The position numbers and the translations under genes were made by a program. 64,000 bases of DNA from Solea solea (lineage: Eukaryota; Chordata; Actinopteri; Pleuronectiformes; Soleidae): positions 18,702,388-18,766,387 of the forward strand of contig NC_081139.1 in the NCBI RefSeq assembly GCF_958295425.1, given 5' to 3'. This document shows positions 36,341-63,222 of the stretch, one piece after another. How positions within the stretch are numbered: position 1 is the stretch's first letter; each line of letters opens with the position of its first letter. A model generated the notes under the pieces. That model had not been told where the DNA came from. It did no database searches and worked only from the letters and a program-made list of their open reading frames with translations.

Positions 36341-39300
36341 TGTATATATATATATGTATAGTGATAGTGTAGTTGGGCTGCCGTCACCTGATCCATTATC
36401 AGTGAATGTCTCACCTCTTGTTTTATAAGGCAAATGGACAAAAATATTACATATTTCATGTGCCGCTTCTGTCAGAAAAACAAAAATTATAAACACCAAT
36501 ATCAGTTTGAAGGTATTGGCTAAAACAGCAAAACAAATTTGCAAAACGTTACTGCTGCTTGTCTACAAAATAAAAAGCCCAGCCAATGTCACCGAACCTG
36601 AACCAAAACATTTAAATTTCACAATCATCTATTCTACTTGTATTTTACAATTGTCCTCCCCATTATTATTACTTACTGCCAAAATTACTTACATAAACCC
36701 AAATTATCTGTTCAAATGGAGCACACCAACACAAGTATTTCACACATTGGCACACGTATTTTACCTTTTGCCTGTGATCAGCTTTTTAGTCAAAAATTGT
36801 CAAAGCTGAGCTGAATTATATCATTTAGACAACAGAGCAGCAGAGACACATCTGCAATCTCTGCCTTAGTAGCTAGTAGTAGTAACAGCAAACCAACGCT
36901 ATAATAAACAAAGAATTAGAATTTACAATTATCACTAAAAAGTAGTAAAACACTTGAAGGAAGAGAAGAATACCATTATCTCTCTTGTGATAATAAATTT
37001 GACTCTCTCGTGTGCATGACAAGACGGCGTAACCGTGGTATTGCAATAACTGTGACAGCCCTAAATTATGGTAATTGTTGACACAGCTGAGGGATTGTCA
37101 CATAGCAACACAGTGTTTAGAAAAACCTAGGAAAGACAATATAAATAAAACAATTCCACAAAGAAAAACTTAAAGAAAGTATCATGCAAAATTAGGAAAA
37201 AACAGAAGGAACGTCCTAGTGTCTGAAACAGAACAAAATGTAAACTAACAAGGAACAACTGAGTGGAAAACACAGTAACAAGAGACAGGTTGGAAGAGTT
37301 TAAACGCTCATGCCAAGAATCTGCTTCTGCAGCACCAACAAAACACACACAGATGGTTTTCAGACACAGGAAGGATGACAGTCACATTGCTTTCACATCT
37401 ACATATACAGTAGCTCCTGTAAAGGGAAGGAGTAGTCAGAGCAGTGTGTGTGGCTGTAATGTAAATTCCTCACGTTGTTACAAGGACAGGAAGAGGACTT
37501 ACTGCCACCCGTCCTCCACCTGCACTCCGATGGATTGGAATTTGGCAAGCGGTGGGGTCTCCTCTCGTGGAACTTCCTGAATACAGTCAACCTTGCAAAA
37601 AATACAAAGAGAAACGGGAAAAGGTGTCATCAAAACCTGGTCAAAACGAATCAGTGACCCTAGATCCATAATTCTATTTAATGTGAGTCCTGTTGAGCCA
37701 GGAACCAAAAATTCAGAACTTTGTACCATCCCATTGCTGTATGCATCTTTTTCTATATTCATGTATATTGTGATGACTGTTAAATTTAAAGGTCCAGTGT
37801 GTAAGAATGGACGACATCTAGTGGAGAGCCTGAAAATGCAACAAATGAAGGCCAGTGCATGAGAAAAACGAGGCCATATCAGGATCATAGTGTCAACAGG
37901 TGGCAAGAGAAGTTCTGCACTCACTCCTCTTTCTCAAGCACTTCGTATAACGGTGGCCTTCACATACCAGACAGGAAGTCTATGTCTTACTTCTTCATTG
38001 GTTTATACTTTGGGTTTTATGATGATGTAGCATTTCTTCTTCCTTGGCAAAGGCAGCGTTTGCTTCATATGTGAAATGCACATCCACGTGAGCTGCTCTA
38101 GAAACGTGATGGCAGTCTCTGTAAGGCCACAAAGGCCACAAATGAGTCTCGTTTCACAGGGATTATGCACTTACACAGACATAATTACATGTGATTTATT
38201 CATTTCATTCAATTTTGCCAATAACCCTCTAAAATGTTTAACACTGGACCTTTGAGGGAAGATATTTAGTGTATTTTATTACAATTCTCATAATTTAGTC
38301 TAGGAATGTCAAAAATGTAGTCAGGGAGGTCACAGACAGCGACTACTGAAATGTAATCAGTTCATCCTTGAATCCAGGAGAATAACTGTGCCAAATTTGA
38401 ATTAATGCCCTGGAAGTGTTCCTAGTATATCTCATTAACCTGGTGTGAATGATGGTGAATGAAATGGTTTGTCAGACAACCTTTAAAACAGAACGACTCT
38501 GGCCACAGCTGTCGCCTGCATCAAGGAAATTCAGAGAAAATCTGTGATTTAAAGTCACAGTTAATGGTTAACCTTACTATGTTTGGAAAATGAAGAAAGG
38601 GACCATTCTCTGCCTTTTTACTATAGTATAATAGTAATATTAGTTGGAGGATAACTCACATGAAACCTTTAGCTACATCCATAGGGCTCTGTTTTTATTT
38701 GAGACAGCATTCGCTTTCAAACCTACTGCACACCCATGCAAACACCTTAAAATGTATATGTCCATTCAGGTACACTGGGCATGTGAATTCTCTCTTCTGC
38801 AATTGTTTGCTTAATTACAAAGAGAACTAGTACCGCGCGCGGTTCTGAACGGGTTCGAGCCGACCCACGCGGGTCGCCGTGTGCCACGGCTCCCCGCGTG
38901 CCTCGCGCTCTCACCCGTTCATTCACCGCGCGCGGTACTAGTTATTTTCAGTACTAGTTATTTTCAGTACTAGTTATTTTCAGCGGCGTCCCCGCGCATG
39001 TCGTTCCAAATTTCGAGGGGGATCAGGCAACGTATGGCAAAGTTATAGGGCACTTCCTGTTTAAAATGGCAGACTTCCTGTTCGGTCAAGTGCGTGTCCG
39101 TAAACGTGTTCAGGGAACTTCCCTTGTCTTACATATCAAGTTTTGTGCAGATCGGACAATCTTAGAGTTGACTTCCTGTTTCGGGCATTCCACTTCCTGT
39201 TGGGAGGTCATCTCTTGCAGACATGCTCAGGACAGGTCCCTGGTGTCACATAAAAGGTTTCGTGCAAATCGGACAACGTACGGCAAAGTTAGAGGGCACT

Positions 39301-42300
39301 TCCTGTTTAAAATGGCCAACTTCCTGTTCGTCTCCGTAAACGTGTTCAGGGAAGTTCCCTTGTCTTACATATCAAGTTTTGTTCAGATCGGACAATGTAA
39401 GACTTTACTTCCTGTTTCGGGCGTTCCACTTCCTGTAGGGAGGTGACCTTTTACGGACATGTTGAGGAAGGGTCTGGGGTCCCACATACTAAGTTTCAAG
39501 TGGATACAACAATCCCTGTTGGAGCAGCATCAAAAACTATAAATGTAATTCTGTCTGCTGTCACCAGGGGGCGCTGTATTTGAAAATGAATATTTTCATA
39601 TAGACGTGTTCAGGGCCGGACTGTCATCAATCCTTGCAAGTTTGGTTCAGATCGGACCAGGATTGGCAAAGTTGTAACAGTTAGTTTTTTTAGAATTTTC
39701 TACCACCACCCGGAGGCGCTGTTTTCAAAATGTACCGTTTCAGCAACATAGTCGTCTTCAGCAACTAACCATCATCAACTATAGCAAGTTTGGTTGGGAT
39801 CAGACCTTCCATCGCGAAGTTATAAGAGTTTCATTGTCTGTTATGAAAAATTATTATTATCTCCAATTTTGGCACCCCCTATCTCGTACGCCATACAATA
39901 TTTTAAAAAGCTTTTGATAACTTTTGATGCTCAACTCGTCCACATTGATCTCACCAAGTTTGAAGGTGATCGCACAAAAGCTCTAGGAGGAGATAATTGA
40001 AATACAAGCTGTCATATTGTCTACTGTCACCAGGGGGCGCTGTTTTCGAAATTTAATATTTTCATATAGACGTCTTTAGGGCCGGACTATCATCAATCCT
40101 AGCAAGTTTGGTTCAGATCGGACCAGGATTCACGAAGTTGTAGCAGTTTGATTTTTTGTCCCAAAAATCCGACTTTGCGTCGTTGCCATGGCAACACCGT
40201 TAAACGATTTGTCGTCATATTGATCACACATCATCTACCATGTGTTTTGACTGTTGTCACCAATTTTGAGTGCGGTACGATTATCTGTGTAAAAGTTATT
40301 CCCGAAATCGTAAAAAAACTTTTTTTTTGTGTATTTTCTTTCACCACAAGGAGGCCCTGTTTTCAAACTTCACCGTTTTTTCATAGATGTCTTCAGCCAT
40401 GGCCCATCATCAATGGTAGCAAGTTTGGTTCGGATCGGACCTTCCATCGCAAAGTTATAAGAGTTTTTTTTTTCTGATGCGAAACATCAGAATCATCACG
40501 AACTTTGCCGCCCCCTATCTCGTGCGCCGTGCGACATTTGAAAAAACTTTTGATACCGTGAGCTCCTCAACAGGTCCACAGGGACCTCACCAAGTTTGAA
40601 GGTGATCGCACGAAAACTCTAGGAGGAGTTAGTTCAAATACCATTGCTGCGAATTCGCCAAAATCGCCAAAAAATCGCCAATCAACCCAAGATGGCGGAT
40701 TTCCTGTTGGGTTTGGATCATGGTCATAATGTAATTTTTTCTTCATCCTGACCCACTACACATGTGTACCGATTTTCGTGCATGTGCGATAATTGTGTTG
40801 GTCATGGTGAATTTTGACAGGTCGCTTCGCACGTTTTGGCCCCTCCCACATTCAATTTTTGACGCACATTCCCCGAACCTTTTTCAGACGTAAATTTACA
40901 CCAGGATTGATGCGGTCACAAAAATCTGTGAGTTTTGGGGTATGGGAAAGGCCTCAAAAACGCGATTTACTTTAAGGAATAATAAGAATAACTAGTACCG
41001 CGCGCGGTTCTGAACGGGTTCGAGCCGACCCACGCGGGTCGCCGTGTGCCACGGCTCCCCGCGTGCCTCGCGCTCTCACCCGTTCATTCACCGCGCGCGG
41101 TACTAGTTATTTTCAGTACTAGTTATTTTCAGCGGCGTCCCCGCGCATGTCGATCCAAATTTCGGGGGGGATCGGGCAACGTATGGCAAAGTTATAGGGC
41201 ACTTCCTGTTTAAAATGGCCGACTTCCTGTTCGGTCAAATGCGCGTCCGTAAACTTGTTCAGGGAAGTTCCCTTGTCTTACATATCAAGTTTTGTTTAGA
41301 TCAGACAATCTTAGAGGTTACTTCCTGTTTCTGGCATTCCACTTCCTGTTGGGAGGTCATCTTTTGCAGACATGCTCAGAACAGGTCCCTGGTGTCACAT
41401 ATAAGGTTTCGTGCAAATCGGACAACGTACGGCAAAGTTAGAGGGCACTTCCTGTTTAAAATGGCCAACTTCCTGTTCGTCTCTGGAAACATGTTCAGGG
41501 AAGGTCCTGTAACTCACATATCTAGTTTTGTGTCAATCGGACAATGTAAGACTTTACTTCCTGTTTCGGGCGTTCCACTTCCTGTAGGGAGGTGACCTTT
41601 TACGGACATGCTCAGGACAGGTCCCTGGTGTCACATATAAGGTTTTGTGCAGATCGGACAATGTACGGCAAAGTTAGAAGGCACTTCCTGTTTAAAATGG
41701 CCGACTTCCTGTTCGGTCAACGGCGTCTCCGTAAACATGTTCAGGGAAGGTCCGGTAACTCACATATCTAGTTTCGTGTCAATCGGACAATGTAAGACTT
41801 TACTTCCTGTTTCGGGCGTTCCACTTCCTGTAGGGAGGTGACCTTTTACGGACATGTTGAGGAAGGGTCTGGGGTCCCACATACTAAGTTTCAAGTGGAT
41901 ACAACAATCCCTGTTGGAGCAGCATCAAAAACTATAAATGTAATTCTGTCTGCTGTCACCAGGGGGCGCTGTATTTGAAAATGAATATTTTCATATAGAC
42001 GTGTTCAGGGCCGGACTGTCATCAATCCTTGCAAGTTTGGTTCAGATCGGACCAGGATTGGCAAAGTTGTAACAGTTTGTTTTTTTAGAATTTTCTACCA
42101 CCACCAGGAGGTGCTGTTTTCAAAATGTACCGTTTCAGCAACATAGTCGTCTTCAGCAACTAACCAGCATCAACTATAGCAAGTTTGGTTGGGATCAGAC
42201 CTTCCATCGCGAAGTTATAAGAGTTTCATTGTCTGTTATGAAAAATTATTATTATCTCTAATTTTGGCGCCCCCTATCTCGTACGCCATACAATATTTTA

Positions 42301-45300
42301 AAAAGGTTTTGATAACTTTTGATGCTCAACTCGTCCACATTGATCTCACCAAGTTTGAAGGTGATCGCACAAAAGCTCTAGGAGGAGATAATTGAAATAC
42401 AAGCTGTCATATTGTCTACTGTCACCAGGGGGCGCTGTTTTCGAAATTTAATATTTTCATATAGACGTCTTTAGGGCCGGACTATCATCAATCCTAGCAA
42501 GTTTGGTTCAGATCGGACCAGGATTCACGAAGTTGTAGCAGTTTGATTTTTTGTCCCAAAAATCCGACTTTGCGTCGTTGCCATGGCAACACCGTTAAAC
42601 GATTTGTCGTCATATTGATCACGCATCATCTACCATGTGTTTTGACTGTTGTCAGCAATTTTGAGTGCGGTACGATTATCTGTGTAAAAGTTATTCCCGA
42701 AATCGTAAAAAAACTTTTTTTTTGTGTATTTTCTTTCACCACAAGGAGGCGCTGTTTTCAAACTTCACCGTTTTTTCATAGACGTCTTCAGCCATGGCCC
42801 ATCATCAATGGTAGCAAGTTTGGTTCGGATCGGACCTTCCATCGCAAAGTTATAAGAGTTTTGTTTTTCTGATGCGAAACATCAGAATCATCACGAACTT
42901 TGCCGCCCCCTATCTCGTGCGCCGTGCGACATTTGAAAAAACTTTTGATACCGTGAGCTCCTCAACTGGTCCACAGGGACCTCACCAAGTTTGAAGGTGA
43001 TCGCACGAAAACTCTAGGAGGAGTTAGTTCAAATACCATTGCTGCGAATTCGCCAAAATCGCCAAAAAATCGCCAATCAACCCAAGATGGCGGATTTCCT
43101 GTTGGGTTTGGATCATGGTCATAATGTAATTTTTTCTTCATCTTGACCCACTACACATGTGTACCGAATTTCGTGCATGTGCGATATTTGTGTTGGTCAT
43201 GGTGAATTTGGACAGGTGGCGCCGCACTTATTGGCCCCTCCCACATTCAATTTTCGACGCACATTCCCCGAACCTTTTTCAGACGTAAATTTACACCAGG
43301 ATTGATGCGGTCACAAAAATTGGTGAGTTTTGGGGTATGGGAAAGGCCTCAAAAAGGCAATTCATTTGGGGGAATAATAAGAATAATAATAACTAGTACT
43401 GAAAATAACTAGTACCGCGCGCGGTTCTGAACGGGTTCGAGCCGACACACGCGGGTCGCCGTGTGCCACGGCTCCCCGCGTGCCTCGTGCTCTCACCCGT
43501 TCATTCACCGCGCGCGGGTACTAGTTATTTTCAGTACTAGTTATTTTCAGCAGCGTCCCCACGCATGTCGATCCAAATTTCGGGGGGGATCGGGCAACGT
43601 ATGGCAAAGTTATAGGGCACTTCCTGTTTAAAATGGCAGACTTCCTGTTCGGTCAAGTGCGTGTCCGTAAACGTGTTCAGGGAACTTCCCTTGGCTTACA
43701 TATCAAGTTTTGTGCAGATCGGATAATCTTAGAGTTTACTTCCTGTTTCGGACATTCCACTTCCTGTTAGGAGGTCATCTCTTGCAGACATGCTCAGGAC
43801 AGGTCCCTGGTGTCACATAAAATGTTTTGTGCAAATCGGACAACGTACGGCAAAGTTAGAGGGCACTTCCTGTTTAAAATGGCCGACTTCCTGTTTGTCT
43901 CCGGCAACATGTTCAGGGAAGGTCCCGTAACTCACATATCTAGTTTCGTGTCAATCGGACAATGTAAGACTTTACTTCCTGTTTCGGGCGTTCCACTTCC
44001 TGTAGGGAGGTGACCTTTTACGGACATGCTCAGGACAGGTCCCTGGTGTCACATATAAGGTTTTGTGCAGATCGGACAACGTACGGCAAAGTTAGAGGGC
44101 ACTTCCTGTTTAAAATGGCCGACTTCCTGTTCGGTCAACGGCGTCTCCGTAAACATGTTCAGGGAAGGTCCAGTAACTCACATATCTAGTTTCGTGTCAA
44201 TCGGACAATGTAAGACTTTACTTCCTGTTTCGGGCGTTCCACTTCCTGTAGGGAGGTGACCTTTTACGGACATGTTCAGGAAGGGTCTGGGGTCCCACAT
44301 ACTAAGTTTCAAGTGGATACAACAATCCCTGTTGGAGCAGCATCAAAAACTATAAATGTAATTCTGTCTGCTGTCACCAGGGGGCGCTGTATTTGAAAAT
44401 GAATATTTTCATATAGACGTGTTCAGGGCCGGACTGTCATCAATCCTTGCAAGTTTGGTTCAGATCGGACCAGGATTGGCAAAGTTGTAACAGTTTGTTT
44501 TTTTAGAATTTTCTACCACCACCAGGAGGTGCTATTTTCAAAATGTACCGTTTCAGCAACACGGTCGTCTTCAGCAACTAACCATCATCAACTATAGCAA
44601 GTTTGGTTGGGATCAGATCTTCCATCGCGAAGTTATAAGAGTTTCATTGTCTGTTGTGAAAAATTATTATTATCTCCAATTTTGGCGCCCCCTATCTCCT
44701 ACGCCATACAATATTTTAAAAAGCTTTTGATAACTTTTGATGCTCAACTCGTCCACATTGATCTCACCAAGTTTGAAGGTGATCGCACAAAAGCTCTAGG
44801 AGGAGATAATTGAAATACCAGCTGTCATATTGTCTACTGTCACCAGGGGGCGCTGTTTTCGAAATTTAATATTTTCATATAGACGTCTTTAGGGCCGAAC
44901 TATCATCAATCCTAGCAAGTTTGGTTCAGATCGGACCAGGATTCGCGCAGTTGTAGCAGTTTGATTTTTTGTCCCAAAAATCCGACTTTGCGTCGTTGCC
45001 ATGGCAACACCGTTAAACGATTTGTTGTCATATTGATCACGCATCATCTACCATGTGTTTTGACTGTTGTCACCAATTTTGAGTGCGGTACGATTATCTG
45101 TGTAAAAGTTATTCCCGAAATCGTAAAAAAACTTTTTTTTTGTGTATTTTCTTTCACCACAAGGAGGCGCTGTATTCAAACTTCACCGTTTTTTCATAGA
45201 CGTCTTCAGCCATGGCCCATCATCAATCATAGCAAGTTTGGTTCGGATCGGACCTTCCATCGCAAAGTTATAAGAGTTTTGTTTTTCTGATGCGAAACAT

Positions 45301-48300
45301 CAGAATCATCACGAACTTTGCCGCCCCCTATCTTGTGCGCCGTGCGACATTTGAAAAAACTTTTGATACCGTGAGCTCCTCAACTGGTCCACAGGGACCT
45401 CACCAAGTTTGAAGGTGATCGCACGAAAACTCTAAGAGGAGTTAGTTCAAATACCATTGCTGCGAATTCGCCAAAATCGCCAAAAAATCGCCAATCAACC
45501 CAAGATGGCGGACTTCCTGTAGGTTTCACGGGAAAGTCGTCATCGACTTTTTTGACCGTCCCCACCTAATGAACGTGTGTACCAAGTTTCGTTCACGTAC
45601 GTTAAACCCGACATGAGTTGACCTAATAGAAGTTTTTTGCGTGACTTTTTAGCCCCTCCCACCTCCAATTTTCCACGCATTTTCCCCGAACGACTTTCAG
45701 ACGTAAATTTACACCAGGATTGATGCGGTCACAAAAATCTGTGAGTTTTGGGGTATGGGAAAGGCCTCAAAAATGCGATTTACTTTTAGGAATAATAATA
45801 ATAATAATAAAAATAACTAGTACCGCGCGCGGTTCTGAACGGGTTCGAGCCGACCCACGCGGGTCGCCGTGTGCCACGGCTCCCCGCGTGCCTCGCGCTC
45901 TCACCCGTTCATTCACCGCGCGCGGTACTAGTTATTTTCAGTACTAGTTATTTTCAGTACTAGTTATTTTCAGCGGCGTCCCCGCGCATGTCGATCCAAA
46001 TTTCGGGGGGGATCGGGCAACGTATGGCAAAGTTATAGGGCACTTCCTGTTTAAAATGGCCGACTTCCTGTTCGGTCAAATGCGCGTCCGTAAACTTGTT
46101 CAGGGAAGTTCCCTTGTCTTACATATCAAGTTTTGTTTAGATCAGACAATCTTAGAGGTTACTTCCTGTTTCTGGCATTCCACTTCCTGTTGGGAGGTCA
46201 TCTTTTGCAGACATGCTCAGGACAGGTCCCTTGTGTCACATATAAGGTTTTGTGCAAATCGGACAACATACGGCAAAGTTAGAGGGCACTTCCTGTTAAA
46301 AATGGCCAACTTCCTGTTCGTCTGTGGAAACATGTTCAGGGAAGGTCCTGTAACTCACATATCTAGTTTTGTGTCAATCGGACAATGTAAGACTTTACTT
46401 CCTGTTACGGGTGTTCCACTTCCTGTAGGGAGGTGACCTTTTACAGACATGCTCAGGACAGGTCCCTGGTGTCACATATAAGGTTTTGTGCAAATCGGAC
46501 AATGTACGGCAAAGTTAGAGGGCACTTCCTGTTTAAAATGGCCGACTTCCTGTTCGTCTCCGGAAACATGTTCAGGGAAGGTCCCGTAACTCACATATCC
46601 AGTTTCGTGTCAATCGGACAATGTAAGACTTTACTTCCTGTTTCGGGCGTTCCACTTCCTGTAGGGAGGTGACCTTTTACGGACATGTTGAGGAAGGGTC
46701 TGGGGTCCCACATACTAAGTTTCAAGTGGATACAACAATCCCTGTTGGAGCAGCTTCAAAAACTATAAATGTAATTCTGTCTGCTGTCACCAGGGGGCGC
46801 TGTATTTGAAAATGAATATTTTCATATAGACGTGTTCAGGGCCGGACTGTCATCAATCCTTGCAAGTTTGGTTCAGATCGGACCAGGATTGGCAAAGTTG
46901 TAACAGTTTGTTTTTTTAGAATTTTCTACCACCACCAGGAGGCGCTGTTTTCAAAATGTACCGTTTCAGCAACATAGTCGTCTTCAGGAACTAACCATCA
47001 TCAACTATAGCAAGTTTGGTTGGGATCAGACCTTCCATCGCGAAGTTATAAGAGTTTCATTGTCTGTTATGAAAAATTATTATTATCTCCAATTTTGGCG
47101 CCCCCTATCTCGTACGCCATACAATATTTTAAAAAGCTTTTGATAACTTTTGATGCTCAACTCGTCCACATTGATCTCAGCAAGTTTGAAGGTGATCGCA
47201 CAAAAGCTCTAGGAGGAGATAATTGAAATACAAGCTGTCATATTGTCTGCTGTCACCAGGGGGCGCTGTTTTCGAAATTTAATATTTTCATATAGACGTC
47301 TTTAGGGCCGGACTATCATCAATCCTAGCAAGTTTGGTTCAGATCGGACCAGGATTCACGAAGTTGTAGCAGTTTGATTTTTTGTCCCAAAAATCCTACT
47401 TTGCGACGTTGCCATGGCAACACCGTTAAACGATTTGTCGTCATATTGATCACGCATCATCTACCATGTGTTTTGACTGTTGTCACCAATTTTGAGTGCG
47501 GTACCATTATCTGTGTAAAAGTTATTCCCGAAATTGTAAAAAAACTTTTTTTTTGTGTATTTTCTTTCACCACAAGGAGGCGCTGTTTTCAAACTTCACC
47601 GTTTTTTCATAGACTTCTTCAGCCATGGCCCATCATCAATGGTAGCAAGTTTGGTTCGGATCGGACCTTCCATCGCAAAGTTATAAGAGTTTTGTTTTTC
47701 TGATGCGAAACATCAGAATCATCACGAACTTTGCCGCCCCCTATCTCGTGCGCCATGCGACATTTGAAAAAACTTTTGATACCGTGAGCTCCTCAACTGG
47801 TCCACAGGGACCTCACCAAGTTTGAAGGTGATCGCACGAAAACTCTAGGAGGAGTTAGTTCAAATACCATTGCTGCGAATTCGCCAAAATCGCCAAAAAA
47901 TCGCCAATCAACCCAAGATGGCGGATTTCCTGTTGGGTTTGGATCATGGTCATAATGTAATTTTTTCTTCATCCTGACCCACTACACATGTGTACCGAAT
48001 TTCGGGCATGTGCAATAATTGTGTTGGTCATGGTGAATTTGGACAGGTGGCGCCGCACTTATTGGCCCCTCCCACATTCAATTTTTGGCGCACATTCCCC
48101 GAACCTTTTTCAGACGTAAATTTACACCACGATTGATGCGGTCACAAAAATCTGTGAGTTTTGGGGTATGGGAAAGGCCTCAAAAAGGCGATTTACTTTA
48201 AGGAATAATAAGAATAATAATAATAATAATAATAATCCTTCCAGTTTCAATAGGTTTCTTGCAACCTTGTTGCTCGAACCCTAATAATAATAATCTTTTG

Positions 48301-51300
48301 CATTTCAATAGGGTTCTTGCAACCTTGTTGCTCGAACCCTAATAATAATAAAAATAACTAGTACTGAAAATAACTAGTACTGAAAATAACTAGTACCGCG
48401 CGCGGTTCTGAACGGGTTCGAGCCGACCCACGCGGGTCGCCGTGTGCCACGGCTCCCCGCGTGCCTCGCGCTCTCACCCGTTCATTCACCGCGCGCGGTA
48501 CTAGTTATTTTCAGTACTAGTTATTTTCAGTACTAGTTATTTTCAGTACTAGTTATTTTCAGTACTAGTTATTTTCAGCGGCGTCCCCGCGCATGTCGTT
48601 CCAAATTTTGAGGGGGATCGGGCAATGTATGGCAAAGTTATAGGGCACTTCCTGTTTAAAATGGCAGACTCCCTGTTCGGTCAAGTGCGTGTCCGTAAAC
48701 GTGTTCAGGGAACTTCCCTTGTCTTACATATCAAGTTTTGTGCAGATCGGACAATCTTAGAGTTTACTTCCTGTTTCGGGCATTCCACTTCCTGTTGGGA
48801 GGTCATCTTTTGCAGACATGCTCAGGACAGGTCCCTGGTGTCACATATAAGGTTTCGTGCAAATCGGACAACGTACGGCAAAGTTAGAGGGCACTTCCTG
48901 TTTAAAATGGCCAACTTCCTGTTAGTCTCTGGAAACATGTTCAGGGAAGGTCCCATAACTCACATATCTAGTTTTGTGTCAATCGGACAATGTAAGACTT
49001 TACTTCCTGTTTCGGGCGTTCCACTTCCTGTAGGGAGGTGACCTTTTACGGACATGCTCAGGACAGGTCCCTGGTGTCACATATAAGGTTTTGTGCAGAT
49101 CGGACAATGTACGGCAAAGTTAGAAGGCACTTCCTGTTTAAAATGGCCGACTTCCTGTTCGGTCAACGGCGTCTCCGTAAACATATTCAGGGAAGGTCCC
49201 GTAACTCACATATCTAGTTTCGTGTCAATCGGACAATGTAAGACTTTACTTCCTGTTTCGGGCGTTCTACTTCCTGTAGGGAGGTGACCTTTTACGGACA
49301 TGTTGAGGAAGGGTCTGGGGTCCCACATACTAAGTTTCAAGTGGATACAACAATCCCTGTTGGAGCAGCATCAAAAACTATAAATGTAATTCTGTCTGCT
49401 GTCACCAGGGGGCGCTGTATTTGAAAATGAATATTTTCATATAGACGTGTTCAGGGCCGGACTGTCATCAATCCTTGCAAGTTTGGTTCAGATCGGACCA
49501 GGATTGGCAAAGTTGTAACAGTTTATTTTTTTAGAATTTTCTACCACCACCAGGAGGCGCTGTTTTCAAAATGTACCGTTTCAGCTATACAGTCGATTTC
49601 AGCAACTAACCATCATCAACTATAGCAAGTTTGGTTGGGATCAGACCTTCCATCGCGAAGTTATAAGAGTTTCATTGTCTGTTATGAAAAATTATTATTA
49701 TCTCCAATTTTGGCGCCCCCTATCTCGTACGCCATACAATATTTTAAAAAGCTTTTGATAACTTTTGATGCTCAACTCGTCCACATTGATCTCACCAAGT
49801 TTGAAGGTGATCGCACAAAAGCTCTAGGAGGAGATAATTGAAATACAAGCTGTCATATTGTCTGCTGTCACCAGGGGGCGCTGTTTTCGAAATTAAATAT
49901 TTTCATATAGACGTCTTTAGGGCCGGACTGTCATCAATCCTAGCAAGTTTGGTTCAGATCGGACCAGGATTCACGAAGTTGTAGCAGTTTGATTTTTTGT
50001 CCCAAAAATCCGACTTTGCGTCGTTGCCATGGCAACACCGTTAAACGATTTGTCATCATATTGATCATGCATCATCTACCATGTGTTTTGACTGTTGTCA
50101 CCAATTTTGAGTGCGGTACGATTATCTGTGTAAAAGTTATTCCCGAAATCGTAAAAAAACTTTTTTTTTGGTGTATTTTCTTTCACCACAAGGAGGCGCT
50201 GTTTTCAAACTTCACCGTTTTTTCATAGACGTCTTCAGCCATGGCCCATCATCAATGGTAGCAAGTTTGGTTCGGATCGGACCTTCCATCGCAAAGTTAT
50301 AAGAGTTTTTTTTTTCTGATGCGAAACATCAGAATCATCACGAACTTTGCCGCCCCCTATCTCGTGCGCCGTGCGACATTTGAAATTTTTTTTGATACCG
50401 TGAGCTCCTCAACTGGTCCACAGGGACCTCACCAAGTTTGAAGGTGATCGCACGAAAACTCTAGGAGGAGTTAGTTCAAATACCATTGCTGCAAATTCGC
50501 CAAAATCGCCAAAAAATCGCCAATCAACCCAAGATGGCGGATTTCCTGTTGGGTTTGGATCATGGTCATAATGTAATTTTTTCTTCATCCTGACCCACTA
50601 CACATGTGTACCAAATTTCGTGCATGTGCGATATTTGTGTTGGTCATGGTGAATTTAGACAGGTGGCGCCGCACTTATTGGCCCCTCCCACATTCAATTT
50701 TCGACGCACATTCCCCGAATCTTTTTCAGACGTAAATTTACACCAGGATTGATGCGGTCACAAAAATTGGTGAGTTTTGGGGTATGGGAAAGGCCTCAAA
50801 AAGGCAATTCATTTGGGGGAATAATAAGAATAATAATAATAAAAATAACTAGTACCGCGCGCGGTTCTGAACGGGTTCGAGCCGACCCACGCGGGTCGCC
50901 GTGTGCCACGGCTCCCCGCGTGCCTCGCGCTCTCACCCGTTCATTCACCGCGCGCGGTACTAGTTATTTTCAGTACTAGTTATTTTCAGTACTAGTTATT
51001 TTCAGCGGCGTCCCCGCACATGTCGATCCAAATTTCGGGGGGGATCGGCAACGTATGGCAAAGTTATAGGGCACTTCCTGTTTAAAATGGCCAACTTCCT
51101 GTTCGTCTCTGGAAACATGTTCAGGGAAGGTCCCGTAACTCACATATCTAGTTTTGTGTCAATCGGACAATGTAAGACTTTACTTCCTGTTTCGGGTGTT
51201 ACACTTCCTGTAGGGAGGTGACCTTTTACGGACATGCTCAGGACAGGTCCCTGGTGTCACATATAAGGTTTTGTGCAAATCGGACAACGTACGGCAAAGT

Positions 51301-54300
51301 TAGAGGGCACTTCCTGTTTAAAATGGCCGACTTCCTGTTCGTCTCCGTAAACATGTTCAGGGAAGGTCCCGTAGCTCACATATCTAGTTTTGTGTCAATC
51401 GGACAATGTAAGACTTTACTTCCTGTTTCGGGCGTTCCACTTCCTGTAGGGAGGTGACCTTTTACGGACATGCTCAGGACAGGTCCCTGGTGTCACATAT
51501 AAGGTTTTGTGCAGATCGGACAACGTACAGCAAAGTTAGAGGGCACTTCCTGTTTAAAATGGCCGACTTCCTGTTCAGTCAACGGCGTCTCCGGAAACAT
51601 GTTCAGGGAAGGTCCCGTAACTCACATATCCAGTTTCGTGTCAATCGGACAATGTAAGACTTTACTTCCTGTTTCGGGCGTTCCACTTCCTGTAGGGAGG
51701 TGACCTTTTACGGACATGCTCAGGACAGGTCCCTGGTGTCACATATAAGGTTTTGTGCAGATCGGACAACGTACGGCAAAGTTAGAGGGCACTTCCTGTT
51801 TAAAATGGCCGACTTCCTGTTCGGTCAACGGCGTCTCCGTAAACATGTTCAGGGAAGGTCCAGTAACTCACATATCTAGTTTCGTGTCAATCGGACAATG
51901 TAAGACTTTACTTCCTGTTTCGTGCGTTCCACTTCCTGTAGGGAGGTGACCTTTTACGGACATGCTCAGGACAGGTCCCTGGTGTCACATATAAGGTTTT
52001 GTGCAGATCGGACAACGTACGGCAAAGTTAGAGGGCACTTCCTGTTTAAAATGGCCGACTTCCTGTTCGGTCAACGGCGTCTCCGTAAACATGTTCAGGG
52101 AAGGTCCAGTAACTCACATATCTAGTTTCGTGTCAATCGGACAATGTAAGACTTTACTTCCTGTTTCGGGCGTTCCACTTCCTGTAGGGAGGTGACCTTT
52201 TACGGACATGTTGAGGAAGGGTCTGGGGTCCCACATACTAAGTTTCAAGTGGATACAACAATCCCTGTTGGAGCAGCATCAAAAACTATAAATGTAATTC
52301 TGTCTGCTGTCACTAGGTGGCGCTGTATTTGAAATTGAATATTTTCATATAGACGTGTTCAGGACCGGACTATCATCAATCCCAGCAAGTTTGGTTCAGA
52401 TCGGACCAGGATTAGCAAAGTTGTAACAGTTTGTTTTTTTAGAATTTTCTACCACCACCAGGAGGCGCTGTTTTCAAAATTTACCGTTTCAGCAACATAG
52501 TCGTCTTCAGCAACTAACCATCATCGACTATAGCAAGTTTGGTTGGGATCAGACCTTCCATCGCGAAGTGATAAGAGTTTCATTGTCTGTTATGAAAAAT
52601 TATTATTATCTCCAATTTTGGCGCCCCCTATCTCCTACGCCATACAATATTTTAAAAAGCTTTTGATAACTTTTGATGCTCAACTCGTCCACATTGATCT
52701 CACCAAGTTTGAAGGTGATCGCACAAAAGCTCTAGGAGGAGATAATTGAAATACAAGCTGTCATATTGTCTACTGTCACCAGGGGGCGCTGTTTTCGAAA
52801 TTGAATATTTTCATATAGATGTCTTTAGGGCCGGACTATCATCAATCCTAGCAATTTTGAGTCAGATCGGACCAGGATTCGCGAAGTTGTAGCAGTTTGA
52901 TTTTTTGTCCCAAAAATCCGACTTTCCGTCGTTGCCATGGCAACACCGTTAAACGATTTGTCGTCATATTGATCATGCATCATCTACCATGTGTTTTGAC
53001 TGTTGTCACCAATTTTGAGTGCGGTACGATTATCTGTGTAAAAGTTATTCCCGAAATTGTAAAAAAACTTTTTTTTGTGTATTTTCTTTCACCACAAGGA
53101 GGCGCTGTTTTCAAACTTCACCGTTTTTTCATAGACGTCTTCAGCCATGGCCCATCATCAATCATAGCAAGTTTGGTTCGGATCGGACCTTCCATCGCAA
53201 AGTTATAAGAGTTTTGTTTTTCTGATGCGAAACATCAGAATCATCACAAACTTTGCCGCCCCCTATCTCGTGCGCCGTGCGACATTTGAAAAAACTTTTG
53301 ATACCGTGAGCTCCTCAACTGGTCCACAGGGACCTCACCAAGTTTGAAGGTGATCGCACGAAAACTCTAGGAGGAGTTAGTTCAAATACCATTGCTGCGA
53401 ATTCGCCAAAATCGCCAAAAAATCGCCAATCAACCCAAGATGGCGGATTTCCTGTTGGGTTTGGATCATGGTCATAATGTAATTTTTTCTTCATCCCGAC
53501 CTTCTACACATGTGTACCGAATTTCGGGCATGTGCGATAATTGTGTTGGTCATGGTGAATTTGGACAGGTGGCGCCGCACTTATTGGCCCCTCCCACATT
53601 CAATTTTTGACGCACATTCCCCGAACCTTTTTCAGACGTAAATTTACACCACGATTGATGCAGTCACAAAAATCTGTGAGTTTTGGGGTATGGGAAAGGC
53701 CTCAAAAAGGCGATTTACTTTAAGGAATAATAAGAATAATAATAATAATGAAAATAACTAGTACTGAAAATAACTAGTACCGCGCGCGGTTCTGAACGGG
53801 TTCGAGCCGACCCACGCGGGTCGCCGTGTGCCACGGCTCCCCGCGTGCCTCGCGCTCTCACCCGTTCATTCACCGCGCGCGGTACTAGTTATTTTCAGTA
53901 CTAGTTATTTTCAGTAATAGTTATTTTAAGCGGCGTCCCCGCGCATGTCGTTCCAAATTTCGAGGGGGATCGGGTAACGTATGGCAAAGTTATAGGGCAC
54001 TTCCTGTTTAAAATGGCCAACTTCCTGTTCGTCTCTGGAAACATGTTCAGGGAAGGTCCCGTAACTCACATATCTAGTCTTGTGTCAATCGGACAATGTA
54101 AGACTTTACTTCCTGTTTCGGGCGTTCCACTTCCTGTAGGGAGGTGACCTTTTACGGACATGCTCAGGACAGGTCCCTTAACTCACATATAAGGTTTTGT
54201 GCAGATCGGACAACGTACGGCAAAGTTAGAGGGCACTTCCTGTTTAAAATGGCCGACTTCCTGTTCGGTCAACGGCGTCTCCGTAAACATGTTCAGGGAA

Positions 54301-57300
54301 GGTCCGGTAACTCACATATCTAGTTTCGTGTCAATCGAACAATGTAAGACTTTACTTCCTGTTTCGGGCGTTCCACTTCCTGTAGGGAGGTGACCTTTTA
54401 CGGACATGTTGAGGAAGGGTCTGGGGTCCCACATACTAAGTTTCAAGTGGATACAACAATCCCTGTAGGAGCAGCATCAAAAACTATAAATGTAATTCTG
54501 TCTGCTGTCACCAGGGGGGCGCTGTATTTGAAAATGAATATTTTCATATAGACGTGTTCAGGGCCGGACTGTCATCAATCCTTGCAAGTTTGGTTCAGAT
54601 CGGACCAGGATTGGCAAAGTTGTAACAGTTTGTTTTTTTAGAATTTTCTACCACCACCAGGAGGCGCTGTTTTCAAAATGTACCGTTTCAGCTATACAGT
54701 CGTCTTCAGCAACTAACCATCATCAACTATAGCAAGTTTGGTTGGGATCAGACCTTCCATCGCGAAGTTATAAGAGTTTCACTGTCTGTTATGAAAAATT
54801 ATTATTATCTCCAATTTTGGCGCCCCCTATCTCGTACGCCATACAATATTTTAAAAAGCTTTTGATAACTTTTGATGCTCAACTCGTCCACATTGATCTC
54901 ACCAAGTTTGAAGGTGATCGCACAAAAGCTCTAGGAGGAGATAATTGAAATACAAGCTGTCATATTGTCTGCTGTCACCAGGGGGCGCTGTTTTCGAAAT
55001 TGAATATTTTCATATAGACGTCTTTAGGGCGGACTATCAACAATCCTAGCAAGTTTGGTTCAGGTCGGACCAGGATTCACGAAGTTGTAGCAGTTTGATT
55101 TTTTGTCCCAAAAATCCGACTTTGCGTCATTGCCATGGCAACACCGTTAAACGATTTGTCGTCATATTGATCACGCATCATCTACCATGTGTTTTGACTG
55201 TTGTCACCAATTTTGAGTTCGGTACGATTATCTGTGTAAAAGTTATTCCCGGAATCGTAAAAAAACTTTTTTTTTGTGTATTTTCTTTCACCACAAGGAG
55301 GCGCTGTTTTCAAACTTCACCGTTTTTTCATAGACGTCTTCAGCCATGGCCCATCATCAATGGTAGCAAGTTTGGTTCGGATCGGACCTTCCATCGCAAA
55401 GTTATAAGAGTTTTGTTTTTCTGATGCGAAACATCAGAATCATCACGAACTTTGCCGCCCCCTATCTCGTGCGCCGTGCGACATTTGAAAAAACATTTGA
55501 TACCGTGAGCTCCTCAACTGGTCCACAGGGACCTCGCCGAGTTTGAAGGTGATCGCACGAAAACTCTAGGAGGAGTTAGTTCAAATACCATTGCTGCGAA
55601 TTCGCCAAAATCGCCAAAAAATCGCCAATCAACCCAAGATGGCGGATTTCCTGTTGGGTTTGGATCATGGTCATAATGTAATTTTTTCTTCATCCCGACC
55701 TTCTACACATGTGTACCGAATTTCGTGCATGTGTGATAATTGTGTTGGTCATGGTGAATTTGGACAGGTGGCGCCGCACTTATTGGCCCCTCCCACATTC
55801 AATTTTCGACGCACATTCCCCGAACCTTTTTCAGACGTAAATTTACACCACGATTGATGCGGTCACAAAAATCTGTGAGTTTTGGGGTATGTGAAAGGCC
55901 TCAAAAACGCGATTTACTTTAAGGAATAATAAGAATAATAATAATAACGAGCCGACCCACGCGGGTCGCCGTGTGCCACGGCTCCCCGCGTGCCTCGCGC
56001 TCTCACCCGTTCATTCACCGCGCGCGGTACTAGTTATTTTCAGTACTAGTTATTTTCAGTACTAGTTATTTTCAGCGGCGTCCCCGCGCATGTCGTTCCA
56101 AATTTCAAGGGGGATCGGGCAACGTATGGCAAAGTTATAGGGCACTTCCTGTTTAAAATGGCAGACTTCCTGTTCGGTCAAGTGCGTGTCCGTAAACGTG
56201 TTCAGGGAACTTCCCTTGTCTTACATATCAAGTTTTGTGCAGATCGGATAATCTTAGAGTTTACTTCCTGTTTCGGGCATTCCACTTCCTGTTGGGAGGT
56301 CATCTCTTGCAGACATGCTCAGGACAGGTCCCTGGTGTCACATAAAAGGTTTCGTGCAAATCGGACAACGTACGGCAAAGTTAGAGGGCACTTCCTGTTT
56401 AAAATGGCCAACTTCCTGTTCGTCTCCGTAAACGTGTTCAGGGAAGGTCCCGTAACTCACATATCCAGTTTCGTGTCAATCGGACAATGTAAGACTTTAC
56501 TTCCTGTTTTGGGCCTTCCACTTCCTGTAGGGAGGTGACCTTTTACGGACATGCTCAGGACAGGTCCCTGGTGTCACATATAAGGTTTTGTGCAAATCGG
56601 ACAATGTACGGCAAAGTTAGAGGGCACTTCCTGTTTAAAATCGCCGACTTCCTGTTCGTCTCCGTAAACATGTTCAGGGAAGGTCCAGAAACTCACATAT
56701 CTAGTTTCGTGTCAATCGGACAATGTAAGACTTTACTTCCTGTTTCGGGCGTTCCACTTCCTGTAGGGAGGTGACCTTTTACGGACATGCTCAGGACAGG
56801 TCCCTGGTGTCACATATAAGGTTTTGTGCAGATCGGACAACGTACGGCAAAGTTAGAGGGCACTTCCTGTTTAAAATGGCCGACTTCCTGTTCGGTCAAC
56901 GGCGTCTCTGTAAACATGTTCAGGGAAGGTCCAGTAACTCACATATCTAGTTTCGTGTCAATCGGACAATGTAAGACTTTACTTCCTGTTTCGGGCGTTC
57001 CACTTCCTGTAGGGAGGTGACCTTTTACGGACATGTTGAGGAAGGGTCTGGGGTCCCACATACTAAGTTTCAAGTGGATACAACAATCCCTGTTGGAGCA
57101 GCATCAAAAACTATAAATGTAATTCTGTCTGCTGTCACCAGGGGGCGCTGTATTTGAAAATGAATATTTTCATATAGACGTGTTCAGGGCCGGACTGTCA
57201 TCAATCCTTGCAAGTTTGGTTCAGATCGGACCAGGATTGGCAAAGTTGTAACAGTTTGTTTTTTTAGAATTTTCTACCACCACCAGGAGGCGCTGTTTTC

Positions 57301-60300
57301 AAAATGTACCGTTTCAGCAACATAGTCGTCTTCAGCAACTAACCATCATCAACTATAGCAAGTTTGGTTGGGATCAGACCTTCCATCGCGAAGTTATAAG
57401 AGTTTCATTGTCTGTTATGAAAAATTATTATTATCTCCGATTTTGGCGCCCCCTATCTCGTACGCCATACAATATTTTAAAAAGCTTTTGATAACTTTTG
57501 ATGCTCAACTCGTCCACATTGATCTCACCAAGTTTGAAGGTGATCGCACAAAAGCTCTAGGAGGAGATAATTGAAATACAAGCTGTCATATTGTCTGCTG
57601 TCACCAGGGGGCGCTGTTTTCGAAATTGAATATTTTCATATAGACGTTTTTAGGGCCGGACTATCATCAATCCTAGCAAGTTTGGTTCAGATTGGACCAG
57701 GATTCACGAAGTTGTAGCAGTTTGATTTTTTGTCCCAAAAATCCGACTTTGCGTCGTTGCCATGGCAACACCGTTAAACGATTTGTCGTCATATTGATCA
57801 CGCATCATCTACCATGTGTTTTGACTGTTGTCACCAATTTTGAGTGCGGTACGATTATCTGTGTAAAAGTTATTCCCGAAATCGTAAAAAAACTTTTTTT
57901 TGGTGTATTTTCTTTCACCACAAGGAGGCGCTGTTTTCAAATTTCACCGTTTTTTCATAGACGTCTTCAGCCATGGCCCATCATCAATGGTAGCAAGTTT
58001 GGTTCGGATCGGACCTTCCATCGCAAAGTTATAAGAGTTTTAATTTTCTGATGCGAAACATCAGAATCATCACGAACTTTGCCGCCCCCTATCTCGTGCG
58101 CCATGCGACATTTGAAAAAACCTTTGATACCGTGAGCTCCTCAACTGGTCCACAGGGACCTCACCAAGTTTGAAGGTGATCGCACGAAAACTCTAGGAGG
58201 AGTTAGTTCAAATACCATTGCTGCGAATTCGCCAAAATCGCCAAAAAATGGCCAATCAACCCAAGATGGCGGATTTCCTGTTGGGTTTGGATCATGGTCA
58301 TAATGTAATTTTTTCTTCATCCTGACCCACTACACATGTCTACCGAATTTCGTGCATGTGCGATATTTGTGTTGGTCATGGTGAATTTGGACAGGTGGCG
58401 CCGCACTTATTGGCCCCTCCCACATTCAATTTTCGCCGCTCATTCCCCGAACCTTTTTCAGACGTAAATTTACACCAGGATTGATGCGGTCACAAAAATT
58501 GGTGAGTTTTGGGGTATGGGAAAGGCCTCAAAAAGGCAATTCATTTGGGGGAATAATAAGAATAATAATAATCCTTTCAGTTTCAATAGGTTTCTTGCAA
58601 CCTTGTTGCTCGAACCCTAAAAATAACTAGTACCGCGCGCGGTTCTGAACGGGTTCGAGCCGACCCACGCGGGTCGCCGTGTGCCACGGCTCCCCGCGTG
58701 CCTCGCGCTCTCACCCGTTCATTCACCGCGCGCGGTACTAGTTATTTTCAGTACTAGTTATTTTCAGTACTAGTTATTTTCAGCGGCGTCCCCACGCATG
58801 TCGTTCCAAATTTCGGGGGGGATCGGGCAACGTATGACAAAGTTATAGGGCACTTCCTGTTTAAAATGGCAGACTTTCTGTTCGGTCAAGTGCATGTCCG
58901 TAAACGTGTTCAGGGAACTTCCCTTGTCTTACATATCAAGTTTTGTGCAGATTGGATAATCTTGGAGTTTACTTCCTGTTTCGGGCATTCCACTTCCTGT
59001 TGGGAGGTCATCTCTTGCAGACATGCTCAGGACAGGTCCCTGGTGTCACATAAAATGTTTCGTGCAAATCGGACAACGTACGGCAAAGTTAGAGGGCACT
59101 TCCTGTTTAAAATGGCCAACTTCCTGTTCGTCTCCGTAAACGTGTTCAGGGAAGTTCCCTTGTCTTACATATCAAGTTTTGTTCAGATCGGACAATGTAA
59201 GACTTTACTTCCTGTTTTGGGCGTTCCACTTCCTGTAGGGAGGTGACATTTTACGGACATGCTCAGGACAGGTCCCTGGTGTCACATATAAGGTTTTGTG
59301 CAGATCGGACAACGTACGGCAAAGTTAGAGGGCACTTCCTGTTTAAAATGGCCGACTTCCTGTTCGGTCAATGGCGTCTCCGTAAACATGTTCAGGGAAG
59401 GTCCAGTAACTCACATATCTAGTTTCGTGTCAATCGGACAATGTAAGACTTTACTTCCTGTTTCGGGCGTTCCACTTCCTGTAGGGAGGTGACCTTTTAC
59501 GGACATGTTGAGGAAGGGTCTGGGGTCCCACATACTAAGTTTCAAGTGGATACAACAATCCCTGTTGGAGCAGCATCAAAAACTATAAATGTAATTCTGT
59601 CTGCTGTCACCAGGGGGCGCTGTATTTGAAAATGAATATTTTCATATAGACGTGTTCAGGGCCGGACTGTCATCAATCCTTGCAAGTTTGGTTCAGATCG
59701 GACCAGGATTGGCAAAGTTGTAACAGTTTGTTTTTTTAGAATTTTCTACCACCACCAGGAGGCGCTGTTTTCAAAATGTACCGTTTCAGCAACATAGTCG
59801 TCTTCAGCAACTAACCATCATCAACTATAGCAAGTTTGGTTGGGATCAGACCTTCCATCGCGAAGTTATAAGAGTTTCATTGTCTGTTATGAAAAATTAT
59901 TATTATCTCCAATTTTGGCGCCCCCTATCTCGTACGCCATACAATATTTTAAAAAGCTTTTGATAACTTTTGATGCTCAACTCGTCCACATTGATCTCAC
60001 CAAGTTTGAAGGTGATCGCACAAAAGCTCTAGGAGGAGATAATTGAAATACAAGCTGTCATATTGTCTACTGTCACCAGGGGGCGCTGTTTTCAAAATTT
60101 AATATTTTCATATAGACGTCTTTAGGGCCGGACTATCATCAATCCTAGCAAGTTTGGTTCAGATCGGACCAGGATTCACGAAGTTGTAGCAGTTTGATTT
60201 TTTGTCCCAAAAATCCGACTTTGCGTCGTTGCCATGGCAACACCGTTAAACGATTTGTCGTCATATTGATCACGCATCATCTACCATGTGTTTTGACTGT

Positions 60301-61965: not shown

Positions 61966-63222
61966 CTGTGAGAGAAAAGATGCAAAAGAGATGAGAAAGA
62001 CACGCACATTGGTACACCTCTTCAACTGCTTGGTAAATATCAATTCAGCCAGTCACATGTGTGGCCTGAGAAGAGAAAACGTTGTCCTCAGTTGCCCACA
62101 GCTCTAAATGCTGTATATATATATATATGTGAGGCCACTGCTGCATGAAAGATGGAGCACCAGAGAGTCACAGAGGCATGAGGCAGAAAATCAAATCAGA
62201 GGAGCAATCACCAAAAGTCCCCAGTCACACAGGCTGCACTTCAAAGCCCCCTGATCACGAGATAGGGAATAAAAATAAGGAAATCAGTTAATAAAAAGAG
62301 TTCACTCTGAAGACCAAATATGGTGGAGAAGATGAAGATGGAAATTTATCTGCACACTCGTGAATTTCAGACCACATATATAGGACATCAACGAGAGAGA
62401 CAGACAGTGCATCGTCCATAGACAGTATTTTAAACGAGTGACTTGATTACTGTCTAACTTTCTAAGTTAGATACATTTTGAAGTGTCACAAGAGGGAGTC
62501 TGCATCTTTACAGTCCTCCCAGGACCTCAATTATTTATAATTACAAGATTCTTGTTTTTTATTTGTTCACTAAAAGTACAAATCTTATCTGTGATGCAAA
62601 AAAGGTACTTGTTTTTGACAAGAAAGTCTAGTTAAGTGATTATAAAGCATATTTCTTTTACAAATATCGCAATAATATAGTGACTAGAAACCATCACAGC
62701 CTCTCATGCTTTAGTACTCTATCACATGTATATGTAAATAACATTTTCTTCCTTCACAGTGTGATTAAATGGCTATAGTTCAAGTGGATCTGAGAGATAT
62801 AAAGGAAAAAGATATTAAGCTTTATGAATGTTGGACTCATTATACACTGCTTAATCCATTGGTCACATGACCGCATATACGCAGGGTTAAAAATCTAAAG
62901 CTGAGTGTGGGTTTAAATGAAATCCACACAGCATGAGTCGAACAGACAACACAGAAGCAGAAGTTTCAAGAAGCTTTATGACCATTTCTGCACTTATGGA
63001 CCAGACACACAGAGAATTGAAAGATAAAAAGACAAATATAAATATAGAATTTAGAGTAAATAAAACATACAAAAGCAATCAAGTACTGCAAAAACAGAAT
63101 AGCAGCGAGCATAGCAGTCAATAACAATACGTTTCATATGGGTATTGAGGCTGATGGATGAATCAGTCCAGAGTTAGAAGCAAAACAAATGGAGAGGAAT
63201 TGAGGCTGAACCTCGGTCAGAG

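Follow-up and report, generated by a model that had tools for sequence, protein, structure and literature searches.

The window, a stretch of 64,000 nucleotides of the Solea solea genome, contains nine tandem units of about 2.4 kb at positions 38,826-61,272, all on the + strand, in which motifs resembling the CTCF binding site recur in a single orientation. This array lies beside a GKAP/DLGAP-family gene on the - strand, probably within one of its introns. Coding pieces of the family are present left of the array at 35327-36094 and 37499-37924 (- strand), where PF03359 matches with E 9.7e-36 and, for the second piece, with E 9.2e-6 and 25.9 bits, which is under the cut-off of 27. The open reading frame on the right (61499-62017, - strand) has no Pfam match; judging by its look only, it probably belongs to that gene as an upstream exon. 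An earlier note on this DNA had described 18 co-oriented CTCF-core-like motifs, two per unit, and had proposed that they could form a strong loop anchor or boundary within dlgap4.

A motif scan of the window confirmed the motifs themselves. The sequence CACCAGGGGGCGCTG is present in 16 exact copies on the + strand; a single-copy variant, CACTAGGTGGCGCTG, starts at 52,311 (+), and a copy with an extra G, which had been placed at about 54,510, starts at 54,509 (+). Three of the starts first given were off by one (they are 39,562, 40,028 and 41,957). When up to three mismatches to CACCAGGGGGCGCTG were allowed, 35 matches were found on the + strand and none on the - strand, namely the 16 exact copies, CACTAGGTGGCGCTG and 18 other relatives, against 0.61 expected from dinucleotide shuffles (n = 100, largest value 3). 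Adding the extra-G copy gives 36 sites, in agreement with the estimated total of about 36. There are four per unit, which we named A, C, B and D in their order along the unit and which in unit 1 are spaced by 145, 321 and 317 bp.

We scored these sites with a reconstruction of the CTCF matrix JASPAR MA0139.1, the counts of which have consistent column sums (908-913). At p<1e-5 the array contains 35 sites on the + strand and none on the - strand, and at p<1e-6 it contains 33 + sites, whereas shuffling the dinucleotides of the array (n = 200) gave a mean of 0.62 sites at p<1e-5 and a maximum of 3. Of 1,000 shuffles of a single unit, 7.2% contained a site at p<1e-5, and a score of 21.8 bits was never attained. 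Site scores range from 14.4 to 22.0, the maximum of the matrix being 28.9, and therefore the concern that poor flanking positions would keep the motif below threshold does not apply. Thus, by matrix score the motif is CTCF-grade despite the T at matrix position 4, which is rare for CTCF (36/913 in this matrix); the extra-G copy is the sole array site of the 36 that fails. The two additional relatives in each unit, which had been considered weaker, are not clearly so, because their common forms CCACCACCAGGAGGCGCTG and TCACCACAAGGAGGCGCTG score 22.0 and 19.7 compared with 21.8 for the main site. The four sites have corresponding positions in an old internal subrepeat and therefore descend from about one ancestral motif; as copies by descent, the 36 sites are not 36 independent observations in either their number or their common strand. 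The remaining 41,553 bases of the window contain three + and four - sites at p<1e-5, and non-repeat matches among them are those at 31159-31177 (-, 20.4 bits) and 31758-31776 (+, 17.2 bits).

Other motifs recur in the array as well. The ETS-type sequence CAGGAAGT is present 111 times on the - strand and is absent from the + strand (0.87 in shuffles), and the YY1-type sequence AAGATGGCGG is present eight times, always on the + strand and in seven cases within the composite AAGATGGCGGATTTCCTG (0.10 in shuffles). Between 39871 and 60569 a G+C-rich block, GGCGCCCCCTATCTCGT and GCCGCCCCCTATCTCGT, is found twice in most units and is also kept in a relative of the element with 77-79% identity; its reverse complement contains AGGGGGCG, yet stays below the CTCF threshold.

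On the + strand each unit consists, in this order, of a 117-bp hairpin cassette, 16-bp repeats, about two to five subrepeats of 236-246 bp in which ACTTCCTGT is frequent, a core of 1.5 kb that carries the sites A, C, B and D, an (AAT)n microsatellite, and a 58-bp stem-loop tail that is present in zero to five copies. Unit 1 (38826-40990) has site A at 39562-39576, C at 39707-39721, B at 40028-40042 and D at 40345-40359. In the same order, the sites of unit 2 (40991-43407), of which near-identical copies exist at other loci, are at 41957-41971, 42102-42116, 42423-42437 and 42740-42754; those of unit 3 (43408-45815) at 44375-44389, 44520-44534, 44841-44855 and 45158-45172; and those of unit 4 (45816-48388), which ends in two tail copies (48224-48351), at 46788-46802, 46933-46947, 47254-47268 and 47571-47585. 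Unit 5 (48389-50847) has them at 49403-49417, 49548-49562, 49869-49883 and 50187-50201, and unit 6 (50848-53772), with CACTAGGTGGCGCTG as its site A, at 52311-52325, 52456-52470, 52777-52791 and 53093-53107. In unit 7 (53773-55947) the extra-G site A at 54509 is followed by C, B and D at 54655-54669, 54976-54990 and 55292-55306. Unit 8 (55948-58625) is without the left arm of the hairpin cassette, has one tail at about 58572-58620, and carries its sites at 57136-57150, 57281-57295, 57602-57616 and 57919-57933. Finally, unit 9 (58626-61272) has four tail copies (61044-61272) and sites at 59608-59622, 59753-59767, 60074-60088 and 60391-60405.

The unit is not specific to this locus. In the 642-Mb assembly the exact 15-mer CACCAGGGGGCGCTG occurs 1,658 times (907 + 751) and its reversal is absent. 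The CTCF core consensus CASYAGRKGGCRSY occurs 10,692 times (reversal 162), and the 15-mer accounts for 15.5% of these matches; sites C and D fall outside this consensus and outside the genome-wide counts. A search with a 481-bp piece of the core gave 1,441 first-look candidates. Forty of these, among them those of the window, were scored; they come from 16 contigs and match the full length of the piece at 99-100% identity. The flanks of the motif are found, with at most two mismatches, at 761 places (32 for the reversed control), and in an uncontrolled count the motif is intact in 94 of 100 listed copies with exact flanks. The 29-bp end of the tail has 795 exact copies in the genome and none of its reversal. 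The first 100 places of the 15-mer, all on two contigs that we call C1 and C2, form 27 clusters, and all 15 clusters with more than one site have a single orientation. For 50 of these sites a partner lies at 466 bp, the spacing of this family, for 26 it lies at 812 bp, the spacing of the relative, and 24 have neither; therefore, not every 15-mer need belong to the element. In 20 fetched stretches of 10 kb, three loci (L009, L023 and L028) contain a solitary copy with both ends, and stacks are present as well. Within the core pieces of these loci the CTCF sites share the strand of the element, apart from a single one on the opposite strand in L012. Hence, the unit is a dispersed young element present as solitary copies and as stacks, and the proposal of a block special to dlgap4 is not supported, given this scattering and the lack of visible post-insertion constraint described below.

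The relative with 77-79% identity also forms arrays, at G000 C1:20839112-20895306 (locus L029) and C2:15891435-15926190, in which CTCF motifs lie 812 bp apart with a period of 4-5 kb in one direction. Pattern scans for relatives in a viral contig collection and in a genome contig collection gave no matches.

The ends of the unit give an indication of the type of element. Read on the - strand, the hairpin cassette (38826-38942 in unit 1, running from ACTAGTACCGCGCGCGG to CCGCGCGCGGTACTAGT) looks like the 3' end of a Helentron, with a GCTCGAACCC subterminal repeat, a palindrome and CTAG; its predicted fold has an energy of -90.6 kcal/mol (z -12.4), and none of 200 shuffles is as low. The stem-loop part of the tail (61111-61160; -16.8 kcal/mol, z -3.6), read on the same strand, looks like a Helentron 5' end, TTAGGGTTCGAGC. 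TTA-GGGTTCGAGC begins all seven printed 5' ends, although this end is not fixed by an empty site, and GCTCGAACCC is near all 11 printed 3' ends. GGGTTCGAGC and GCTCGAACCC are inverted subterminal repeats, the former 3 nt from the 5' end, where 2-4 nt is described for Helentrons and the related HINE elements (PMC4067079). The same source lists an inverted repeat adjoining the 5' subterminal repeat of DINE-1, a microsatellite and/or central tandem repeats, and T-rich insertion targets without target-site duplication (PMC4067079). In the element we found a GCAACAAGGTTGC stem and GGGTTC/GAACCC beside the 5' repeat in the tail, (AAT)n and the 236-246-bp subrepeats, and flanks that look T-rich by eye; in addition, the CTAG end of a relative abuts TTAGGG at L011. 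The element thus shares with Helentrons and HINE/DINE-1 the inverted subterminal repeats, the 3' palindrome, the inverted repeat at the 5' repeat, the microsatellite, the central tandem repeats and perhaps, as judged by eye, the T-rich flanks (PMC4067079).

There are also differences. The subterminal repeat of the element is 10 bp long compared with 12-15 in Helentrons (PMC4067079), and the 117-nt hairpin is a further difference. In Helentrons and HINEs the 3' subterminal repeat and palindrome are 38-60 bp and 8-35 bp from the 3' end (PMC4067079). In the element these distances to CTAG, counted by eye, are 24 and 5 nt in the seven of 11 ends without an extra 16-bp repeat, and about 40 and 21 nt with one extra repeat, so that they match only in copies with extra repeats (4/11 ends). 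For Helentrons and HINEs an autonomous partner with the same ends encodes a Rep/helicase, with an endonuclease (PMC4067079). By its ends the element resembles a non-autonomous Helentron; we call it Helentron-like and make no claim of membership.

The comparison with mammalian short interspersed elements (SINEs) made in the earlier note holds insofar as a mobile element spreads CTCF sites, and does not hold for the carrier. We discarded a SINE because the unit is about 2.4 kb long and no head derived from tRNA, 7SL or 5S RNA was seen: the window contains no tRNA, and 3 kb around a solitary copy gave no Rfam match at E<=5, which also leaves no known RNA or ribozyme in that copy up to this value. 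We also considered whether the (TAA)n tail indicates a LINE-like element, and gave preference to the inverted subterminal repeats. The hairpin cassette is nearly perfectly paired, and relatives at L011:8648 and L029:2657-2802 differ in both arms; their arm letters CCGCAAGCGG and TTGCTTGCGG still look pairable, as if the structure were kept. A second family, starting with TTAAAGCTGCAAGCAGCG, follows the (AAT)n of a unit at L016:8700 onward and at L022:6136-7700. It has subrepeats distantly like those of the element, and in L022, where it lies between core and tail, no CTCF core was seen in it.

To see how stacks arise we compared 62 full cores, 53 from the fetched loci and nine from the window. 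The 20 fetched loci had been picked by similarity to unit 2 and are not a random sample, which biases the 20 units that were hit and not the 42 others. For none of the 62 cores is the nearest relative located in the same array, and the same is true of the 42 non-hit units, for which 2.3 would be expected. Median divergence is 2.2% within arrays (87 pairs) and 1.9% between loci (1,804 pairs), and none of eight closely matching pairs in different loci has matching right neighbours. These results disfavour unequal crossing over as well as the dispersal of whole arrays, and show that stacks are assembled from independently derived copies. In the window, units are 97-99% identical to each other except for unit 3, whose core is only about 93% identical to the other eight. 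Unit 3 represents a minor core type that is also found in one unit each of L010, L012, L016 and L018 (5/62 cores), and therefore stacks mix subfamilies.

Many units within stacks have no tail, and tails collect at one end of the stack. On C1 and C2 we tallied exact tails and units for 57 of the 100 motif places, excluding the C1 array at 20.84-20.90 Mb and C2 beyond 15.8 Mb. Six multi-unit clusters have tail-to-unit counts of 5/5, 2/2, 2/2, 0/2, 2/3 and 3/5, and of 17 single-unit clusters six have one exact tail and 11 have none. In L022 a related element is inserted exactly between core and tail. Insertion into the (AAT)n between core and tail would explain both the gathering of tails and the tail-less units, and nested same-direction insertion fits better than local duplication.

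Next, we consider whether the motif is maintained. Locus L029, fetched because it bears the exact motif, so that site A is ascertained, keeps sites at homologous places, with 42 of 45 letters identical when site A is left out (binomial p 0.004; against three random 15-mers p 0.03; against neutral score decay p 3e-4). A query free of the motif found six loci with the same four-site layout. Of these, L034 is L029's place and both L032 and L033 belong to the C1 array of L029, which leaves L030, L031 and L035 at other places. On the opposite strand, L029 to L035 show weaker matches of 13.1-13.2 bits, one or two per locus. A profile of the flanks without the motif gave 404 matches in the window and L009-L035, of which the 315 reaching the motif edge were used and 89 dropped. 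Each of the resulting subrepeat clusters was assigned the score of the highest-scoring 19-mer no more than a few bases away from the expected place, which introduces a slight upward bias, and L029 and L034 overlap. Fifteen of 16 clusters have a CTCF score of at least 16.3, and the remaining one scores 10.8. In the ten clusters that were not chosen by the motif (L029-only clusters omitted, except the failing one, which comes from L029/L034 only) nine score at least 16, compared with 3.0 expected (p 7e-5 if independent). Mean identity is 0.84 for the motif and 0.74 for its flanks, with conservation higher in the motif for 104 of 120 pairs. Conservation per column follows CTCF information over columns 4-17 (rho 0.70; 2/198 other placements as high) and 5-17 (rho 0.85; 0/200), ranges that were examined after the full 19 columns. 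One subfamily site, TTACCACCAGGTGGCACTG, is with 23.8 a better CTCF match than the ancestor. These data provide moderate evidence that the motif has been retained between old subfamilies more than its flanks and that its conserved positions follow CTCF information, which suggests selection on source elements.

The explanation that we favour, with somewhat better than even confidence, is that the array consists of nine one-direction copies of a young non-autonomous Helentron-like element, that nesting builds one-way CTCF banks, that CTCF binding helped the source elements, and that the sites are mostly passengers locally. Full copies carry four co-oriented CTCF sites from one ancestor, plus YY1- and ETS-type motifs. 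New copies would insert in the same direction into the (AAT)n between the core and tail of an older copy, and through this nesting stacks would grow as one-way banks. Binding of CTCF may have helped source elements, for instance by keeping their DNA open. By convention, a forward motif array would hold cohesin arriving from higher coordinates; an unmethylated stack would stall cohesin from that side and anchor loops in that direction, so that each stack could be a one-way loop anchor. At any single locus, that of the window included, the sites would mostly be passengers and not a selected boundary. A bolder form of this explanation, which we consider less likely than not, is that a selfish rolling-circle-type transposon kept its CTCF sites by selection on source copies, that self-nesting in one direction built DXZ4-like one-way banks at very many places of this one fish genome, which would provide up to about 15% of the CTCF-core consensus sites, and that loop extrusion may have been reshaped in this way.

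Several results weigh against the favoured explanation. Once a copy has inserted, its motif decays no differently from the surrounding sequence and is not detectably maintained: selection on it was looked for in the nine units and in the 62 young copies and was not seen, since in the nine units the motifs are kept no better than other 15-mers, and in the 62 copies their substitution rates are at percentiles 0.56 (A), 0.79 (C), 0.15 (B) and 0.45 (D) among 15-mer windows. Transitions at CpG are threefold commoner than at other C/G positions (2.8% versus 0.9%, nine units), and the CpG of site C has been lost by C-to-T change in 19 of 62 copies, which suggests at least some germline methylation. 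The random-window retention test on L029 is weak, the clusters lack independence, another block has five overlapping windows that rank ahead of the motif window (sixth of 115), and over all 19 columns the agreement with CTCF information is unremarkable (rho 0.44; 16/184 other placements as high). With regard to strict nesting, L013 (three heads followed by five tails) misfits, as do the clusters with counts of 0/2, 2/3 and 3/5 and the window itself, with nine units and seven tails.

The absence of post-insertion constraint and the CpG decay are what would be expected if the motif were a passenger altogether, the element being silenced and methylated, CTCF hardly binding, and the sites being many through multiplication of the element. 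In line with this, the zebrafish transposon classes reported in PMC9341505 are all highly methylated, with 1-4% of their CpGs lowly methylated. However, the core still has a CpG observed/expected ratio of 0.99, the passenger view does not account for the motif's retention from one subfamily to another or for the resemblance of its conserved columns to CTCF, and two zebrafish transposon families, SINE3-1a and HATN9_DR, do supply many CTCF-bound sites (1,016 and 647; PMC9341505). We consider this pure passenger alternative somewhat unlikely. The rarity of T at position 4 and the even stronger conservation of another subrepeat block would suit a word kept for a different DNA-binding protein, perhaps of the element's transposition machinery, with an incidental likeness to CTCF; as the invariant columns are the CTCF-informative ones and TTACCACCAGGTGGCACTG surpasses the ancestor as a CTCF match, this is rather improbable. 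We give still less credit to a locus-specific boundary selected for many CTCF sites in the dlgap4 intron. Nine same-direction units between coding pieces of one gene, and a divergent layout with the - strand sites on the left (31,159, 35,627 and 37,809), would fit it; stacks at unrelated places, motifs kept no better than other 15-mers and a + strand site on the same left side (31,758) do not. An ordinary macrosatellite in which unequal crossing over copied the motif along is most improbable, because the head-to-tail order of highly identical units is outweighed by nearest relatives that always lie outside the array, by divergence no lower within arrays than between loci, and by the tails left at one end.

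B2 is an example of a transposon that has spread CTCF sites in rodents. The contribution of transposons to rodent CTCF sites (PMC7520972) and the two zebrafish families share with the element a dispersed repeat that carries CTCF motifs widely. The element differs in its four co-oriented sites per copy, its one-direction stacking and its Helentron-like carrier, and SINE3-1a and HATN9_DR sites are bound by CTCF whereas those of the element are known as sequence. At boundaries of topologically associating domains in zebrafish, CTCF motifs are preferentially convergent, although another data set cited there showed no enrichment (PMC8438036). Tandem units of about 3 kb with one-directional CTCF motifs are also found in DXZ4/Dxz4, and at Dxz4 the same-direction motif bank sets the direction of contacts (PMC5899087, PMC6985041). 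DXZ4, FIRRE and ICCE pair CTCF with YY1 sites, as the array does with its eight AAGATGGCGG motifs, and FIRRE and ICCE likewise lie inside genes (PMC6985041, PMC5899087). DXZ4 is a single X-linked locus with demonstrated CTCF binding and contact direction, whereas the element consists of mobile units at many loci and so lacks the single-locus character of a DXZ4-type macrosatellite. D4Z4 (PMC2639723) and the 1q23.3 tRNA repeat (PMC4041453) are tandem units with CTCF-dependent insulation or CTCF binding; they are fixed human loci that are not known to be transposons.

Fish transposons with CTCF-bound sites, the role of rodent transposons and tandem CTCF macrosatellites are therefore already known. 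What appears to be new is one element that combines transposon spread with tandem CTCF stacking: none was found among the matches listed for open-licence literature on CTCF and fish transposons or tandem repeats and on transposon self-insertion in fish, which likewise contain no description of the element itself, and five strings of the element gave no matches in open-licence literature. To our knowledge, transposons that spread CTCF sites have been regarded as contributing them singly. The combination of stacking with four oriented sites in each copy provides a natural dose series of solitary copies, pairs and stacks, near-identical and at many places of one genome, which could link the number of aligned CTCF sites directly to barrier strength. 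It also raises the question of whether a transposon gains from CTCF binding, and the comparison of subfamilies points that way.

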